DNA from: a virus
Virus record (IMG/VR): IMGVR_UViG_3300009091_000037
Location: 1 to 34,203 of that record
Length of the DNA stretch: 34,203 nucleotides
Direction: 5' to 3' (one strand)
Below the pieces are notes generated by a model. That model worked only from the letters and a program-made list of their open reading frames with translations. It made no database searches and was not told the DNA's origin. The translations under genes and the position numbers were made by a program. Position 1 is the first letter of the stretch. The number at the start of each line of letters is the position of its first letter. This document shows, in pieces, positions 1,296 to 33,924 of this stretch.

Positions 1296-1379
1296 ATGAA
1301 TACAGGAATACCTTTGGGGTATCGCTTAAGGAATCGCTTATGGGATCGCTTGTGGAGTTGCTTGAAAGGACAAGTATGA
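1296..1379 (+). CDS. tiny L-x-x-R repeat peptide, left module
   Basis: A 27-codon ORF with the module leader MNTGIPLGY, three tetrapeptide units (RLRN, RLWD, RLWS register) and the terminal CLKGQV. AAGGA lies 5 nt before the ATG, whose upstream neighbour stops 10 nt earlier. Its TGA overlaps the next ATG (ATGA), and the codons for Lys-Gly in its tail form the next Shine-Dalgarno. It is the shortest copy in the window. That it is translated is inferred from the ribosome-binding site and the conserved frame; no function is known. Confidence 0.55.
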   Translation: MNTGIPLGYRLRNRLWDRLWSCLKGQV

Positions 1380-1405
1380 ATACTGAGTCATTTATTTTCG
1401 ACTAA
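1376..1405 (+). pseudogene. second, truncated module start (9 codons)
   Basis: After the ATGA overlap the frame restarts as MNT and then departs from the module consensus (MNTESFIFD, stop). This looks like the leader of a further module whose body was lost, or the original target sequence into which the left module was inserted. It overlaps the 3' end of the convergent methyltransferase-like gene. Confidence 0.4.
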
Positions 1406-8904: not shown

Positions 8905-11900
8905 ATGACAATACCTTTACAAGTAAGAAATGGAACCGTTCGATATTATCCACAAAACAGCGATGAGAAATGGGGAACTGAAGCGTCTGCAATGATGCAA
9001 GATGTAGTACTTGGAATCAACCAAAGTGCACAAACTGCACATTTACAAAATTATGATATTGTTATTGGAACGGACTCTGATGTAGCGGACGGAAATGCTA
9101 CACATAGCTCATGGTCCACCGCAATTGCAGCGGCAATCGATGGAAACACTATTTTTGTAAGAAAATGTACTCTTTCTTTAGCTTCTCAATTAGTGATTAA
9201 TAAAAAACTAAAAATCGTTGGGACTAAACAAGCTTCAGTCATTCAAGATTCCGTTACTATAACAAATGGGTCCATGATAAAAATAACTGTTAATGACGTT
9301 GAATTTGTGGATGTAGAAATTCAACAAAGTCTCGGAACGCCTGATTATGCTATCGAATTAAGTAATGTAAATAGAATTTGTTTAAATATTCCGGTATCAG
9401 GGACATTCGCAATCTCATCTATTTATAGAAATGGAATGACGATTAATGGAATGATAGGACAAATTCTCTCATCAACTACACTTGACAACTATCTTGGAAC
9501 TAATGCATATTCCAAGTATGTATATTTGAATGATGTATTAACATCAACGTATCATACTATTTTAAATTCCAATTCATCAACTGCGTTGACTGCCAATCGG
9601 AATTTAACAATTGACGTAAAGAATGCTGATCGCACATTGTCTTTATCTGGAAATCTTACTATTGGAAACTCTTTATCTACGGGAAGTCACACTATTACAT
9701 TGAACACGACAGGTACAACTAGCATAACGCTTCCAACTGCCGGAACGTTGTCTACTTTAGATGGTGTCGAAACGTTAACGTCAAAGACATTGACTTCTCC
9801 AACCATAACGAATCCGACGCTTTCTGGTGGGACAGTAGTTTCTACAGTTGGCGTATATGATACAAATGCTTCACATTCTCTGAATTTAAAATGGAATGAA
9901 GACGACACCATTAATCGAGTTTTAAATTTAAAAGTCAACGGATCGGATAAGACTATTGATTTATCGGGAAACTTAACCCTTGCAAATAGCTTTACAACAA
10001 GTGGAAATTTCGCTTTGACATTGACTCAAACGGCGGCTACAAACGTCACGCTTCCTACTACCGGAACGCTGTCTACTCTAGATGGGTCTGAAACGCTGAC
10101 AAACAAAACATTAACGTCTCCAATTTTAAATACAGCAACGATTAATAATTCTACAATCTCAATCCCTTCACTTTCAGGAGGGACGGTTATTTCTACGGTG
10201 AGCGTATATGATACAAATGCTTCACATTCTCTGAATTTAAAATGGAATGAAGACGATACCATTAATCGAGTTCTGAATTTCAAAGTTAACGGATCGGATA
10301 AGACTATTGATCTAGCCGGTGACTTAACTTTATCCGGTGCATTTGCGTTGACATTGACCCAAACAGCGGCAACCAATGTCACACTTCCAACTACCGGAAC
10401 GTTGACCACTTTGGCCGGTAGCGAAATATTGACAAATAAAACATTAACTGCACCTACAATAACAAACGCGACTTTATCGGTGACAAATACAAGCGGAGCC
10501 GGTGTTCTTTCGATCAAAAGAAATGAAGCCAGTGCGGTTGATTATACATTGACATACAAAGTAAACGGAGCTTCAAGGACGATTGATCTTGGCGGTGATT
10601 TAAAAACAACAACCCAATCAATCACATTGAATGCAAATGCCGCCGGATCTATTTTGACCTTGCCTGATTCGGGGACGTTGGCAACCATTGGAAATTCTGA
10701 AACGTTTACAAATAAAACGTTGACTGCTCCTACGATTAACAAAGCCTATATTACAATTCCAGATATTGACTCTTCTAATGCGCTATTGATAAAATGGAAT
10801 GAAGGAGCCGCTTTAGATCGAACCTTAAACCTGGCCCTTAATGGAGTGGACCGATCTATCACATTAACAGGGGATTTGAGTGTATCTGGAAACGCAACAA
10901 TTAACCAAGATTTATCAACGACCTCTGCCACAGCTCAACTTGCCACATTAACATGTTCAACAAGTTTAGTATCTGCGTTAATAACCAAAGCATCAGCGGA
11001 CTTAAAGGTGACAACAACCACAAGTGGGGACGTGGAACTAAATCCGGTATCTACTATTTCCAGAATAATGGGCGATACCGCAAACAATTCAGGGACAAAG
11101 CGTGTCTTGTTTGGATCGGATGGGGATGGAACGGACTCTGATAACAGCGCTGGCATTCAGTCTGACACGTCTGGAAATATTCAAGTAAAATATAGAGGTG
11201 GAGTATGGTCAAACATAGCCAGTGCGGCTGGTTTTGCTACAACAACCTTGAACAATCTTGGAACTACAGCGATTAACGCAGCTTTAAATTACGCCGACAC
11301 TAATTTAGGCTTAGTCAATATTCCAGTTGGAACTATTATTCCTTGGATTGGCGGTTATTTCGGAAATGGAAGTAATGGAAGTTATACCCGAGTGCTCGGA
11401 ACGGCAAACACAATTGCCGCCGTTAATACGCTTCAAAACCCAAACGGATGGTATGTATGCGATGGGACAGAATTAAATTTAGCATCCTCTCCAATTTTTA
11501 ATGGAGCCACTCGATTTTTGCCCAATCTTTCAGACAGCCGTTTTTTACTGGGCTATACATCATGCGGAACGCAAGGCGGTGCCAATTCTTTAACGACAGG
11601 AAACGCAAGTGTAAATACAACAACAATGACAGCTGGAATTTCAATTAGCAATCATACCGTAACGAATAATGCTGTAACATCAGGTGCAGGGACTGCTCAT
11701 TCTCACGTGTTAACCCCAGGCACTGCTTATGCCCAAATTGGATTGATTGACAATGGAACGATCTGGGTGAAGAACTATTCTGTGACTGCCTATTCAACAA
11801 CAGGTTATTTGTCAGGGACATATACAGCGGATTCTGGTCCAACTAGTATTGGTTCTGGGGTTGGGGGAAGTACAAATACCGAGTCATCACACACTCATGG

Positions 11901-12033
11901 GGTTACGTCAAATGTTGCTGTGTCAAATCATTCGTTTTCAAATGCAACCTATACTGTAGATGCCCATACTCATTCAATCACAAATAGTTTGCCGCAATAT
12001 TTAACCGTTTTTTATTTGATGAAGGTGAAATAA
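8905..12033 (+). CDS. long tail fibre with collar-like, His-rich receptor tip
   Basis: A 1042-residue fibre. The N-terminal part (about 1-200) includes a pectate-like start (IAAAIDGNTIFVRKC). The shaft (about 215-660) is built of repeated blocks of the type GTLSTLDGSETLTNKTL and DDTINRVLNLKVNGSDKTIDL, common in phage fibres. The C-terminus (from about 810: PVGTIIPWIGG, WYVCDGTEL, LPNLSDSRFLLG) is a tail-collar/needle head with His-x-His motifs near residues 931, 995 and 1020 (AHSHV, SHTHG, AHTHS), which in T4 gp37-like tips bind iron. It ends SLPQYLTVFYLMKVK, as collar domains do. Expected to bind the host receptor. Confidence 0.85.
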   Translation: MTIPLQVRNGTVRYYPQNSDEKWGTEASAMMQDVVLGINQSAQTAHLQNYDIVIGTDSDVADGNATHSSWSTAIAAAIDGNTIFVRKCTLSLASQLVINKKLKIVGTKQASVIQDSVTITNGSMIKITVNDVEFVDVEIQQSLGTPDYAIELSNVNRICLNIPVSGTFAISSIYRNGMTINGMIGQILSSTTLDNYLGTNAYSKYVYLNDVLTSTYHTILNSNSSTALTANRNLTIDVKNADRTLSLSGNLTIGNSLSTGSHTITLNTTGTTSITLPTAGTLSTLDGVETLTSKTLTSPTITNPTLSGGTVVSTVGVYDTNASHSLNLKWNEDDTINRVLNLKVNGSDKTIDLSGNLTLANSFTTSGNFALTLTQTAATNVTLPTTGTLSTLDGSETLTNKTLTSPILNTATINNSTISIPSLSGGTVISTVSVYDTNASHSLNLKWNEDDTINRVLNFKVNGSDKTIDLAGDLTLSGAFALTLTQTAATNVTLPTTGTLTTLAGSEILTNKTLTAPTITNATLSVTNTSGAGVLSIKRNEASAVDYTLTYKVNGASRTIDLGGDLKTTTQSITLNANAAGSILTLPDSGTLATIGNSETFTNKTLTAPTINKAYITIPDIDSSNALLIKWNEGAALDRTLNLALNGVDRSITLTGDLSVSGNATINQDLSTTSATAQLATLTCSTSLVSALITKASADLKVTTTTSGDVELNPVSTISRIMGDTANNSGTKRVLFGSDGDGTDSDNSAGIQSDTSGNIQVKYRGGVWSNIASAAGFATTTLNNLGTTAINAALNYADTNLGLVNIPVGTIIPWIGGYFGNGSNGSYTRVLGTANTIAAVNTLQNPNGWYVCDGTELNLASSPIFNGATRFLPNLSDSRFLLGYTSCGTQGGANSLTTGNASVNTTTMTAGISISNHTVTNNAVTSGAGTAHSHVLTPGTAYAQIGLIDNGTIWVKNYSVTAYSTTGYLSGTYTADSGPTSIGSGVGGSTNTESSHTHGVTSNVAVSNHSFSNATYTVDAHTHSITNSLPQYLTVFYLMKVK
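9851..10319 (+). repeat. internal duplication in the fibre shaft
   Basis: About 118 bp at 9851-9968 is repeated at 10202-10319 with few differences, an offset of 351 bp (117 codons, in frame). It encodes the VYDTNASHSLNLKWNEDDTI block. The near identity suggests recent duplication or gene conversion, a common way for fibre length to change. Confidence 0.8.
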
Positions 12034-28849: not shown

Positions 28850-28876
28850 AAGTGTCCTTTCAGTCTATCCACTATT

Positions 28877-28954
28877 CTACCCCTTATCTATTCCATTAGG
28901 ATAACCCTCTAAGCGATCCCTTAAGCTATACCCACAAGGTAATCCTGTGTTCAT
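28877..28954 (-). CDS. repeat peptide module 1 (frameshifted)
   Basis: A 25-codon ORF beginning MNTGLPCGYS and LRDR, then running into another frame and TAG. The normal module frame resumes farther on (RIVDRLKGHL stop at 28846), with AGA and ATA codons in place of CGC and TTA, so this copy has decayed by an indel and point changes. The tail still provides the start signal of the secreted-protein gene, which may be why it is kept. Confidence 0.5.
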   Translation of the reverse strand: MNTGLPCGYSLRDRLEGYPNGIDKG

Positions 28955-29070
28955 AGCTTTCCTTTCAGTCGATCCCTTAAGCGAACCCCTAAGCGATCCC
29001 ATAAGCGAGCCCTTAAGCGATCCCTTAAGCGATCCCTTAAGCTACACCCCAAAGGTAATCCTGTGTTCAT
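28951..29070 (-). CDS. repeat peptide module 2 (6 units)
   Basis: A 39-residue peptide: leader MNTGLPLGCS, six L-x-x-R units with middle pairs RD, RD, RA, WD, GV, RD, and the tail LKGKL. It starts 10 nt after the stop of the QGDV-like gene, whose TGA is the first base triplet of the module leader. Its own TGA overlaps the next start (ATGA). It is strongly basic and hydrophobic with a four-residue period, so it could be membrane-active or nucleic-acid-binding; neither is shown. Confidence 0.6.
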   Translation of the reverse strand: MNTGLPLGCSLRDRLRDRLRARLWDRLGVRLRDRLKGKL

Positions 29071-29080
29071 AGCTGTCCTT

Positions 29081-29386
29081 TCAGTCGACAACTGGCGCAA
29101 CAAGTCCACTAAATATTCCTTTTTCTAAAATCTTTCCGAATTGCCATATTCCATTTTCAAAATAAAGAGTTTCATGAGTATCATGATTAACGCATGCATT
29201 CTCTTTGGCCACAAAAAACCGTTCATTCTCAGTCACGTAAATATCCCCACCCTCTAAAACGTGAGGATGAGTTGACTCTTGAATTGTTTTGCATTCATGC
29301 TTAATTGCGTTATCTGGAAGTTTATCTATTTTTATAAAAACAATATCTCCTTGTTGTCCAGACTCTTTTACTAATTTTTTTTCCAT
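29081..29386 (-). CDS. QGDV-like small protein
   Basis: A 101-residue protein with QQGDIVFIKIDKLPDNA near residues 11-27, resembling a widespread small family that begins RQGDVLLxPVxxLP. His residues follow (STHPHVLEGG, NHDTHETL), as in that family. I recall such genes near DUF6745-type genes, as seen here at 30022-30933, but this needs checking. AAGGA precedes the ATG. It lies between repeat modules 3 and 2, and its last codon joins the module 2 leader. Confidence 0.55.
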   Translation of the reverse strand: MEKKLVKESGQQGDIVFIKIDKLPDNAIKHECKTIQESTHPHVLEGGDIYVTENERFFVAKENACVNHDTHETLYFENGIWQFGKILEKGIFSGLVAPVVD

Positions 29387-29401: not shown

Positions 29402-29533
29402 TTATAGAGTTATTTTAATCAAACGAAACAGTATATGATCAAATAATTTATCATATAATCGAAACCACAATGGATCTCGTAATAAAAAAAAGCGATCCCC
29501 TAAGCTATACCCCAAAGGCAATCCTGTATTCAT
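29402..29533 (-). CDS. repeat peptide module 3 (diverged body)
   Basis: A 43-residue ORF with the usual leader (MNTGLPLGYS) and one standard unit (LGDR). After a run of eight T the DNA loses the 12-nt repeat, but a hydrophobic residue still falls about every fourth position (LWFR, LYDK, LFDH, LFRL). The standard LKGQ tail is missing and the ORF ends in TAA. The frame may be an old repeat body or a chance extension past a deletion. Confidence 0.45.
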   Translation of the reverse strand: MNTGLPLGYSLGDRFFLLRDPLWFRLYDKLFDHILFRLIKITL

Positions 29534-29697
29534 ACTTGTCCTTTCAGTCGATCAAATAAGCGATCCCATAAGCGATCCAATAAGCGAGCCCCTAAGCGAT
29601 CCCTTAAGCGATCCCTTAAGCGAACCCATAAGCGACCCACTAAGCGATCCCCTAAGCGATCAAATAGTCTATACCCACAAGGTAATCCTGTGTTCAT
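29530..29697 (-). CDS. repeat peptide module 4 (10 units)
   Basis: A 55-residue peptide: leader MNTGLPCGYR, ten units with middle pairs FD, GD, VG, WV, RD, RD, GA, LD, WD, FD, and the tail LKGQV. Start and stop both form ATGA overlaps with modules 5 and 3. The inner order VG, xV, RD, xD, GA is shared with module 5, so the two descend from one array and have since changed mainly at the middle residues. Confidence 0.65.
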   Translation of the reverse strand: MNTGLPCGYRLFDRLGDRLVGRLWVRLRDRLRDRLGARLLDRLWDRLFDRLKGQV

Positions 29698-29897
29698 AGC
29701 TGTCCTTTCAGTCGATCAAATAAGCGATCCCCTAAGCGAACCCATAAGCGAGCCCCTAAGCGATCCATTAAGCGATCCCTTAAGCGAACCCTTAAGCGAC
29801 CCACTAAGCGATCCCATAAGCGAACCAATAAGCGATCCCATAAGCGAAACCTTAAGCGATCCCTTAAGCTACACCCCAAAGGTAATCCTGTATTCAT
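29694..29897 (-). CDS. repeat peptide module 5 (13 units)
   Basis: A 67-residue peptide, the longest: leader MNTGLPLGCS, thirteen units with middle pairs RD, RF, WD, LV, WD, VG, RV, RD, MD, GA, WV, GD, FD, and the tail LKGQL. It has about 18 basic and 7 acidic residues. AAGGA lies 5 nt before the ATG. A longer frame starting at 29942 runs across the leader in the same phase but has no ribosome-binding site. Its TGA overlaps the ATG of module 4. Confidence 0.65.
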   Translation of the reverse strand: MNTGLPLGCSLRDRLRFRLWDRLLVRLWDRLVGRLRVRLRDRLMDRLGARLWVRLGDRLFDRLKGQL

Positions 29898-29926
29898 ACT
29901 TGTCCTTTCAGTCGATCCCCTAAGAG
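29894..29926 (-). pseudogene. remnant of a further repeat module
   Basis: Upstream of module 5 the module frame is still readable as L-L-G-D-R followed by LKGQV and TGA, with the stop overlapping the module 5 start. No leader or start codon remains; an in-frame TAA lies 27 nt farther upstream. This is the 3' end of a module whose 5' part was deleted. Confidence 0.65.
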
Positions 29927-30021: not shown

Positions 30022-30933
30022 TTATGTTATTATTTCCGGTTCTTTATATGTTATATTTTTAAATGGAAATCTAAACACTTTTGCCTCTTCAATTGTTTTA
30101 CAATGATCCCCAACTCCTTCATAGTGGTATCCACCGGTACTAGGATTATACATTTTCAAAACTTTTGCATGTTTATCTTTTTCAATCTCAAGTTCATATA
30201 ATTCATAATCTTCCCATTTTTTAGAACTTTTAAAACTATCTAATAATTTACTTTTCAATTCTTTCATCATTCTTTCAGCACCTATTTTTTCCAACCCAAC
30301 ACGACGTACATCAATGTTTGTTTCAGACAAAACCTTTTTTACGTCTAATTTTTCAGAAGGAGTTTTGATTATATAGTCAGGGACTGAAATTCCATCAATA
30401 AATCCATACCCTGTTCCATCTTTATATTTTATTGAAAAATCATTCGGATTATGAAGTTGAAATAACTCTAAATCATTATTTTTAATTTCACACAGAACTG
30501 GGGATTGGATAACAAAACAAATCTTTTCACAAGGAAGTATTGCCGTAAAATGTCTACATATTTTTTCAAATCTATCAAGATCTTCAATTAATATTTTTTC
30601 AATACCTTTGGTTTCTTTTAAAATATTAATACCGGCCCAATAAAAAGCCACCCACCATGTCCATAAATTTAGAAAAATGATTTCTTTGATAAGTTCCTTT
30701 TTATCTATTTTTGTAGACTCATGAACCATATTAATGGCCTGTTCTGGGCTATCAACATAGTGAATAGTTACTTCATGTTGTATGTCTAAAAATTTTCTAT
30801 ATAAAAAATGGACCGATTCTTTTACAAACGCGTCATTTATTTCTGAGTTTGTTCTTAATCCATTTTTTAACATTACCGTAACATAATCATCAACTTCTTT
30901 TTCTTGTTCTTTTGTTAACTCTAAATTACTCAT
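30022..30933 (-). CDS. DUF6745-like protein
   Basis: A 303-residue protein that by pattern matches DUF6745: a Trp-rich helix (about 92-106, LNLWTWWVAFYWAGI), then FQLHNPNDFSIKYKDGTGYG (about 158-177, the family's HNxxGPAIxYRDGWG), DGISVPDYI, the RRVGLEKIGAERM segment, and a C-terminal GGYHYEGV / KTIEEAKVFRF corresponding to the family's 'lRVPP..kTa.eA..wtF'. Function of the family is unknown. Start ATG 30933 overlaps the upstream gene by 8 nt. The repeat modules follow. Confidence 0.65.
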   Translation of the reverse strand: MSNLELTKEQEKEVDDYVTVMLKNGLRTNSEINDAFVKESVHFLYRKFLDIQHEVTIHYVDSPEQAINMVHESTKIDKKELIKEIIFLNLWTWWVAFYWAGINILKETKGIEKILIEDLDRFEKICRHFTAILPCEKICFVIQSPVLCEIKNNDLELFQLHNPNDFSIKYKDGTGYGFIDGISVPDYIIKTPSEKLDVKKVLSETNIDVRRVGLEKIGAERMMKELKSKLLDSFKSSKKWEDYELYELEIEKDKHAKVLKMYNPSTGGYHYEGVGDHCKTIEEAKVFRFPFKNITYKEPEIIT

Positions 30934-33873: not shown

Positions 33874-33890
33874 AATTCACTCCATTTTTT

Positions 33891-33920
33891 TAAATGCAAT
33901 AATTTTAAATGCAATAATTT
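33891..33920. repeat. two tandem 15-bp direct repeats upstream of ssb
   Basis: TAAATGCAATAATTT occurs twice with no gap (33891-33905 and 33906-33920), filling the space between the ssb ribosome-binding site and the divergent promoters. It may be an operator pair or an untranslated-region element; either reading is open. Confidence 0.7.
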
Positions 33921-33924
33921 TATA

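Follow-up and report, generated by a model that had tools for sequence, protein, structure and literature searches.

The 12-bp repeats in the analyzed viral DNA (an IMG/VR virus record, used over its whole length of 34,203 bp and called the window in the following) most probably represent tiny phage genes encoding tetrapeptide-repeat peptides of the form Arg-Leu-x-y, whose translation we infer from the sequence. Arrays of the same kind recur in dozens of phage proteins, which suggests an unrecognised, fast-changing modular element that probably binds a target. The whole account, comprising mini-genes, turnover of units, selection on x and y and a modular interaction surface, has in our estimate about an even chance of being right, and the putative binding role is its weakest step.

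The window contains a P22-like portal gene, and its nearest named relative is a Silvanigrella aquatica phage (approximately 25% identity in the portal and 31% in the capsid protein), from which repeats of the tetrapeptide type are absent. Zero relatives were returned when IMG/VR was queried with the window terminase and capsid, and DNA queries with the head of the modules, the repeat and a 451-bp region gave no close match in IMG/VR, phages and plasmids. One genome scan matched unrelated 12-mer arrays only, and a scan of IMG/VR anchored on TTA retrieved mostly repeats of other types. The Rfam search gave no match; PADLOC and NCBIfam yielded nothing meaningful, their weak matches falling on the low-complexity array. 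We further report that 12-bp arrays around TCGCTTA occur in other contexts in unrelated bacterial genomes (L029, L032, L034, L035). Two other repeats were seen in the window itself: the tail-fibre-like gene at 8905-12033 contains internal direct repeats of the LSLKWNEDDTINRVLNLKVNG type, with 158-nt copies that are 89% identical, and a perfect 15-bp tandem repeat of 2.3 copies lies at 33888-33922, just upstream of a small gene (33873-33544, minus strand).

The repeats are located on the minus strand between genes 30933-30022 and 28849-28151 and are organized in modules, which are listed together with their neighbors in Table 1. A preliminary description had placed them at 29530-29897. This span does hold two complete minus-strand ORFs, and the repeats reach beyond it to 28877, with a further copy on the plus strand at 1296-1379.

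Table 1. Repeat modules of the window and associated features
Feature	Position	Strand	Description
M1	29694..29897	-	mini-ORF, 67 aa; MNTGLPLGCS, then (RLxy) array, then RLKGQL; SD AAAGGA 5 nt before ATG
M2	29530..29697	-	mini-ORF, 55 aa; start overlaps M1 stop (ATGA)
M3	29402..29533	-	diverged mini-ORF, 43 aa; start overlaps M2 stop; sole stop-free frame of six
M4	28951..29070	-	mini-ORF, 39 aa; 5' border is the TGA stop of the QGD gene
M5	28877..28954	-	degenerate short mini-ORF, 25 aa; overlaps M4 stop
M6	1296..1379	+	mini-ORF, 27 aa; directly after gene 983-1285
Remnant-head ORF MNTESFIFD	1376..1405	+	9 codons; after M6, with the same SD and ATGA overlap
Module-derived 5' end GATAGACTGAAAGGACACTT	28850..28876	-	serves as RBS of gene 28849-28151
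DUF6745-family gene	30022..30933	-	directly upstream of M1; no internal tetrapeptide array, unlike most phage relatives fetched
QGD gene	29081..29386	-	between M3 and M4; QGD homologue, HMM E 1.2e-16

All six module starts share an identical Shine-Dalgarno sequence, AAAGGA, five bases before the ATG. They code for an MNTG[LI]P leader, after which the Arg-Leu-x-y array follows. In three pairs of modules (M1/M2, M2/M3 and M4/M5) the stop of the first and the start of the second overlap in an ATGA. M1, M2 and M4 each close with an RLKG unit that reads CGA CTG AAA GGA, and its AAAGGA is at the same time the Shine-Dalgarno sequence of the next module. Conservation within the modules is highest in the head; its TGA doubles as the stop of the upstream genes 29386-29081 and 983-1285, and an inverted match of 81 nt (86%) connects M6 with the head region of M1. 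For the 22-mer repeat, 28 matches were observed compared to 0 expected in shuffled sequences. The predicted net charge of the M1, M2, M4 and M6 peptides is +4 to +11, and M1 has no match in Pfam at E 0.01.

While M1, M2 and M4 are open in the Arg-Leu frame, two reverse frames are open there too, and since the repeat itself keeps these two frames open, the openness of M1, M2 and M4 alone is little proof of coding. In M3 and M5 the Arg-Leu frame alone is free of stops (in M3 there are 0 stops in this frame vs 4, 5, 6, 1 and 1 in the others), and it is this frame that carries the start and the Shine-Dalgarno sequence. A plus-strand reading, S-[DE]-P-[LI], in a 77-aa ORF at 29690-29923 was rejected as the main reading: it begins with GTG, lacks a good Shine-Dalgarno sequence, covers M1 only and runs into stops in M3 and M5.

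To describe the variation in the window arrays we counted codons in the 31 Arg-Leu-x-y units of all modules except the diverged M3. The Arg codon is CGC in 30 units and AGA in one; the Leu codon is TTA in 29, with CTA and TTG once each. The near constancy of both codons that the preliminary description had claimed is thus borne out. All three exceptions are silent, and AGA and CTA occur together in the unit that opens the M2 array, TTG in the short M6, so that silent variants are, as had also been stated, largely confined to module ends. The middle codons do take many values, with eight kinds at x (AGG 9, TGG 8, GGG 5, TTT 3, TTG 2, GTG 2, ATG and GAG once each) and seven at y (GAT 17, GTT 5, GGT 3, GCT 3, TTT, AAT and AGT once each). 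Silent variants at x or y are absent among the 31 units, and the pairwise replacement diversity (pN) reaches 0.51 for x and 0.33 for y. Nine of the 12 unit positions are nearly constant, the three variable nucleotides being positions 1 and 2 of codon 3 and position 2 of codon 4. The two long modules M1 and M2 keep the same unit order: starting at the VG unit, their last nine units can be aligned with 5 nucleotide differences, every one at x or y. If changes were spread evenly over the unit, the probability of finding 5 out of 5 in the three variable nucleotides would be approximately 0.001.

The gene upstream of M1 is assigned to the DUF6745 family. It matches the PF20530 profile with E 5.5e-6 and 26.3 bits, slightly short of the 27-bit cut-off, and the array-bearing DUF6745 protein of locus L139 with a phmmer E of 2.5e-19; the family itself was reached by a stray DNA-search match (L021). 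Phage DUF6745 proteins are typically built of a conserved N-terminus, an array of four-residue units and the DUF6745 domain, where the units follow [S/Q/N/G/K][V/L/I][R/W/G][D/A/G]; a few (L047, L049-L051) possess no array. A QGD gene adjoins DUF6745 in most other loci, and in the window the mini-gene modules are interleaved with the DUF6745 gene and the small QGD gene. Arrays of the same class are borne by a second phage family, here called family B (MCxFFSF...YEYNPLTK...WEsGLVPSFDG..WRLH; L087, L093, L096, L116, L119, L138, L146, L148, L150, L156), and the members scanned have no significant Pfam or NCBIfam match. The window arrays lie inside neither protein family and form free-standing ORFs. 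The window and another phage (L090), in which two stand-alone QVxy mini-ORFs are chained and the second overlaps both of its neighbors, are the sole clear cases of free-standing arrays that we found.

Outside the phages, 18 out of 194 cyanobacterial genomes contain PF20530, in some cases with a QLxx mid-region that has diverged; for the Paraburkholderia class the count is only 2 out of 369 genomes. Several paralogues per genome occur in some cyanobacteria, and their Q-L-x-x region (L060, L056, L077) looks as if a frozen array had drifted. On Streptomyces plasmids (L323, L324) DUF6745 genes without an array have STM4014/STM4015-family genes in their vicinity, and two Deinococcus copies adjoin an STM4011 radical SAM gene. 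Such neighborhoods hint at an older role in cells.

The comparison across phages rests on a generic pattern scan of IMG/VR, which gave at least 120 stretches; of 80 that were fetched, about half belong to this class and the others are different repeats. The pattern fixed a T at position 2 of codon 2 and GGG across codons 3 and 4, and left eight positions free. As codon 1 and the wobble positions of codons 2 and 4 were among the free positions, their constancy is a result and not an effect of selection by the scan; the arrays of L046, L048 and L021 were moreover found independently of the pattern. The final set consists of 44 arrays with 941 units from the two protein families and one other stand-alone case. 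The array finder required more than one base at position 1 of codon 3, and all family loci used as input gave arrays, none being dropped. The arrays are not fully independent, L085 and L103 being one contig and L152 and L321 near-identical.

In this set the mean silent diversity is 0.064, compared to a replacement diversity of 0.296 at x and y and 0.022 at the constant codons. In 44 out of 44 arrays, replacement diversity at x and y is higher than the silent diversity of the entire unit (sign test p 1e-13, to be read with the partial dependence of the arrays in mind). The preliminary description had proposed such a count of silent and replacement changes by codon, and had named as the outcome speaking against it that the constant codons change silently as often as the middle codons change; this outcome was seen in none of the 44 arrays, and its reading of a repeat protein with a variable pair per unit is supported. 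Per-base diversity peaks at position 1 of codon 3 (0.61) and position 2 of codon 4 (0.44) and is at most approximately 0.12 elsewhere. The residues at x are mainly G (304), R (291) and W (249), those at y mainly D (459), A (293) and G (89), and x and y are independent of each other (chi-square p 0.31). Both protein families and the stand-alone arrays have a common unit grammar of two fixed codons, NNG and GNY. The window arrays share it, being built of 12-nt units with constant codons 1 and 2 followed by NNG GNY, and their profile agrees with the pooled 44 arrays; they vary additionally at position 2 of codon 3.

A further hint towards rapid rewriting of the arrays arises from two near-identical loci, L152 and L321 (Mycobacterium abscessus prophage prophiGD102-1). 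Over 3,882 aligned bases there are 12 mismatches, all of which lie within the array, at position 1 of x or position 2 of y. Judged by eye, the differences are better read mostly as gain or loss of unit blocks, which would mean that the array was rewritten while its flanks stayed unchanged. One must keep in mind that a part of this difference may be assembly error, as repeats of such kind have been shown to be prone to it for het-d/het-e (PMC12222747). A second pair, L325 and L326 (Nocardia farcinica NCTC11134 plasmids 3 and 2), carries the same DUF6745 locus at 99.9% identity with one array frameshifted; the frameshift is probably a sequencing or assembly artefact, and the pair was set aside as evidence for turnover.

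Regarding structure, AF2 predicts one long helix of moderate confidence for M1 (pLDDT 74, pTM 0.35). In the DUF6745 protein of L139 the flanking domains are predicted confidently (in part above 90) and the array falls below 50; Foldseek found no match of the whole model in the PDB at E 0.001. With a single helix for M1 and a low-confidence array in the DUF6745 protein, these models give a binding surface no structural support.

Among other explanations, an unlikely one which nevertheless accounts for several observations is a neutral, microsatellite-like VNTR, in which early x,y variants were shuffled by slippage and both the variation and the peptide are irrelevant. Close relatives that differ as if by unit-block moves would be expected from it, as would the AF2 models without a confident fold, and unrelated 12-bp arrays do occur in bacterial genomes; any single array may, taken alone, go back to near-neutral seeding by few early mutations. 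Neutral seeding would, however, also hit silent and constant sites, whereas the same two codons vary in 44 out of 44 arrays despite different constant codons. The nearly equal abundance of G, R and W at x across unrelated phages is a second argument against it.

The conserved head leads to another idea, which we consider quite unlikely, namely a mobile or expanded ribosome-binding and start cassette whose TGAAAGGACA-ATG head is selected for translation coupling, with the array as a tolerated spacer. This would explain why the head is the best preserved part and provides two upstream genes with their stops and gene 28849-28151 with its ribosome-binding site; the same x,y pattern is, however, present in the fused arrays of DUF6745 and family B proteins, which have no such head.

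Changes clustering at the two bases that flank GGG in NGG-GNY could also point to a site-directed mutator, DGR-like or acting by N-GGG-N dislocation mutagenesis, that writes random bases at fixed unit positions. We regard this as improbable in view of the Arg codons at x. A random writer is expected to produce AGG and CGG together, but of the 35 arrays that have three or more Arg units, 21 contain AGG without CGG, 11 contain CGG without AGG, and both occur in 3 only. That 32 of the 35 arrays have one of the two codons alone is an argument that the alphabet is chosen as amino acids and not as random bases, and this exclusivity favors residue selection together with homogenization of units. Position 1 of codon 3 in the window is furthermore A, T or G only, the repeat search of the window revealed no template repeat, A-specific change was not seen, and a reverse transcriptase was not recognised among the window ORFs examined.

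Finally, iterons or tandem protein-binding sites with the core GGNTCGCTTA and incidental ORFs are very improbable: nine nearly constant positions out of 12, modules at gene ends and the inverse copy at 1296 would suit such a DNA element, but the constant bases differ wholly between related arrays while the codon grammar is kept, other arrays sit within long coding genes, and the modules have Shine-Dalgarno sequences, ATG starts and coupled stops, with the Arg-Leu frame kept even in the diverged module. The constant codon pairs of other arrays, e.g. AGC GTC, TCG GTC, CAG CTC, AAC ATC or GGC GTG, are fixed within an array and different among arrays, so CGCTTA is no DNA motif. Of the second possibility offered in the preliminary description, a nucleotide-level constraint on CGCTTA plus recent amplification, the turnover part therefore stands and the constraint does not.

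In the account that we favor, 12-bp units would be duplicated, deleted and exchanged fast, whereby the constant codons become homogenized (concerted evolution), and selection on amino acids would keep x (mainly R, W or G) and y (mainly D, A or G, in the window also V) diverse. From fast turnover and selected diversity taken together it would follow that the array offers a modular surface for interaction, and its x-y string may set or evade the recognition of a changing partner. The window phage would have uncoupled the array from DUF6745 and would produce it in the form of several short peptides, most of them cationic, in series with DUF6745 and QGD. As no close relative was found, selection on the Arg-Leu modules is deduced from one genome and the wider class. 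The alphabet comprises nearly 3 x 2 symbols; at least two protein families and free peptides show the pattern, and the phages that carry them infect very different hosts. It is possible, if doubtful, that this represents an undescribed phage recognition class in which a four-residue unit serves as a two-residue symbol, approximately 5 to 50 symbols form an array, and units are exchanged in an arms race, the window containing the version with stand-alone chained peptides. If the arrays do bind, they would be compact, naturally shuffled binding modules and would hint at a so far unnoticed conflict between phage and host or among phages.

The closest known counterparts are the phage DUF6745 proteins with an array (e.g. 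MW202476.1, UOF77368.1; gene 38 of M. abscessus prophiGD102-1), which have the same 12-nt grammar and a QGD partner. In these the array lies within the polypeptide and its units begin with S, Q, N, G or K, in MW202476.1 with x alone varying, whereas the window combines an array-less DUF6745 with separate Arg-Leu mini-genes. Our literature search, with most subscription papers outside its reach, found no paper on DUF6745 and no description of four-residue phage units with a near-3 x 2 alphabet in free-standing chained mini-genes.

By analogy, uniform repeats with few hypervariable residues are a known kind, represented by TAL effectors and HNWD receptors. TAL effector repeats are helical hairpins of about 34 aa that read DNA by a repeat-variable di-residue. 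They share with the phage arrays the two adjacent variable residues in a uniform repeat; the phage unit has 4 aa and its target is putative. Pentapeptide-repeat proteins such as MfpA have a period of 5 and form a beta-helix. They resemble the phage arrays in their very short tandem unit with a central hydrophobic residue, but the phage arrays have a period of 4 and no predicted beta solenoid. By profile and repeat length the window arrays belong to neither the pentapeptide nor the TAL type, with a unit of four residues and no Pfam match for M1. The HNWD (het-d/het-e) WD40 NLRs of Podospora anserina consist of near-identical repeats under concerted evolution with few hypervariable sites under diversifying selection, and their alleles differ by the combination of repeats (PMC12222747). 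This likeness is one of the mode of evolution: HNWD proteins are fungal immune receptors with a WD40 beta-propeller and have no homology to the phage arrays, whose recognition is putative. Elsewhere, repeats that are uniform apart from one or two hypervariable residues in each unit have proved to be recognition devices.
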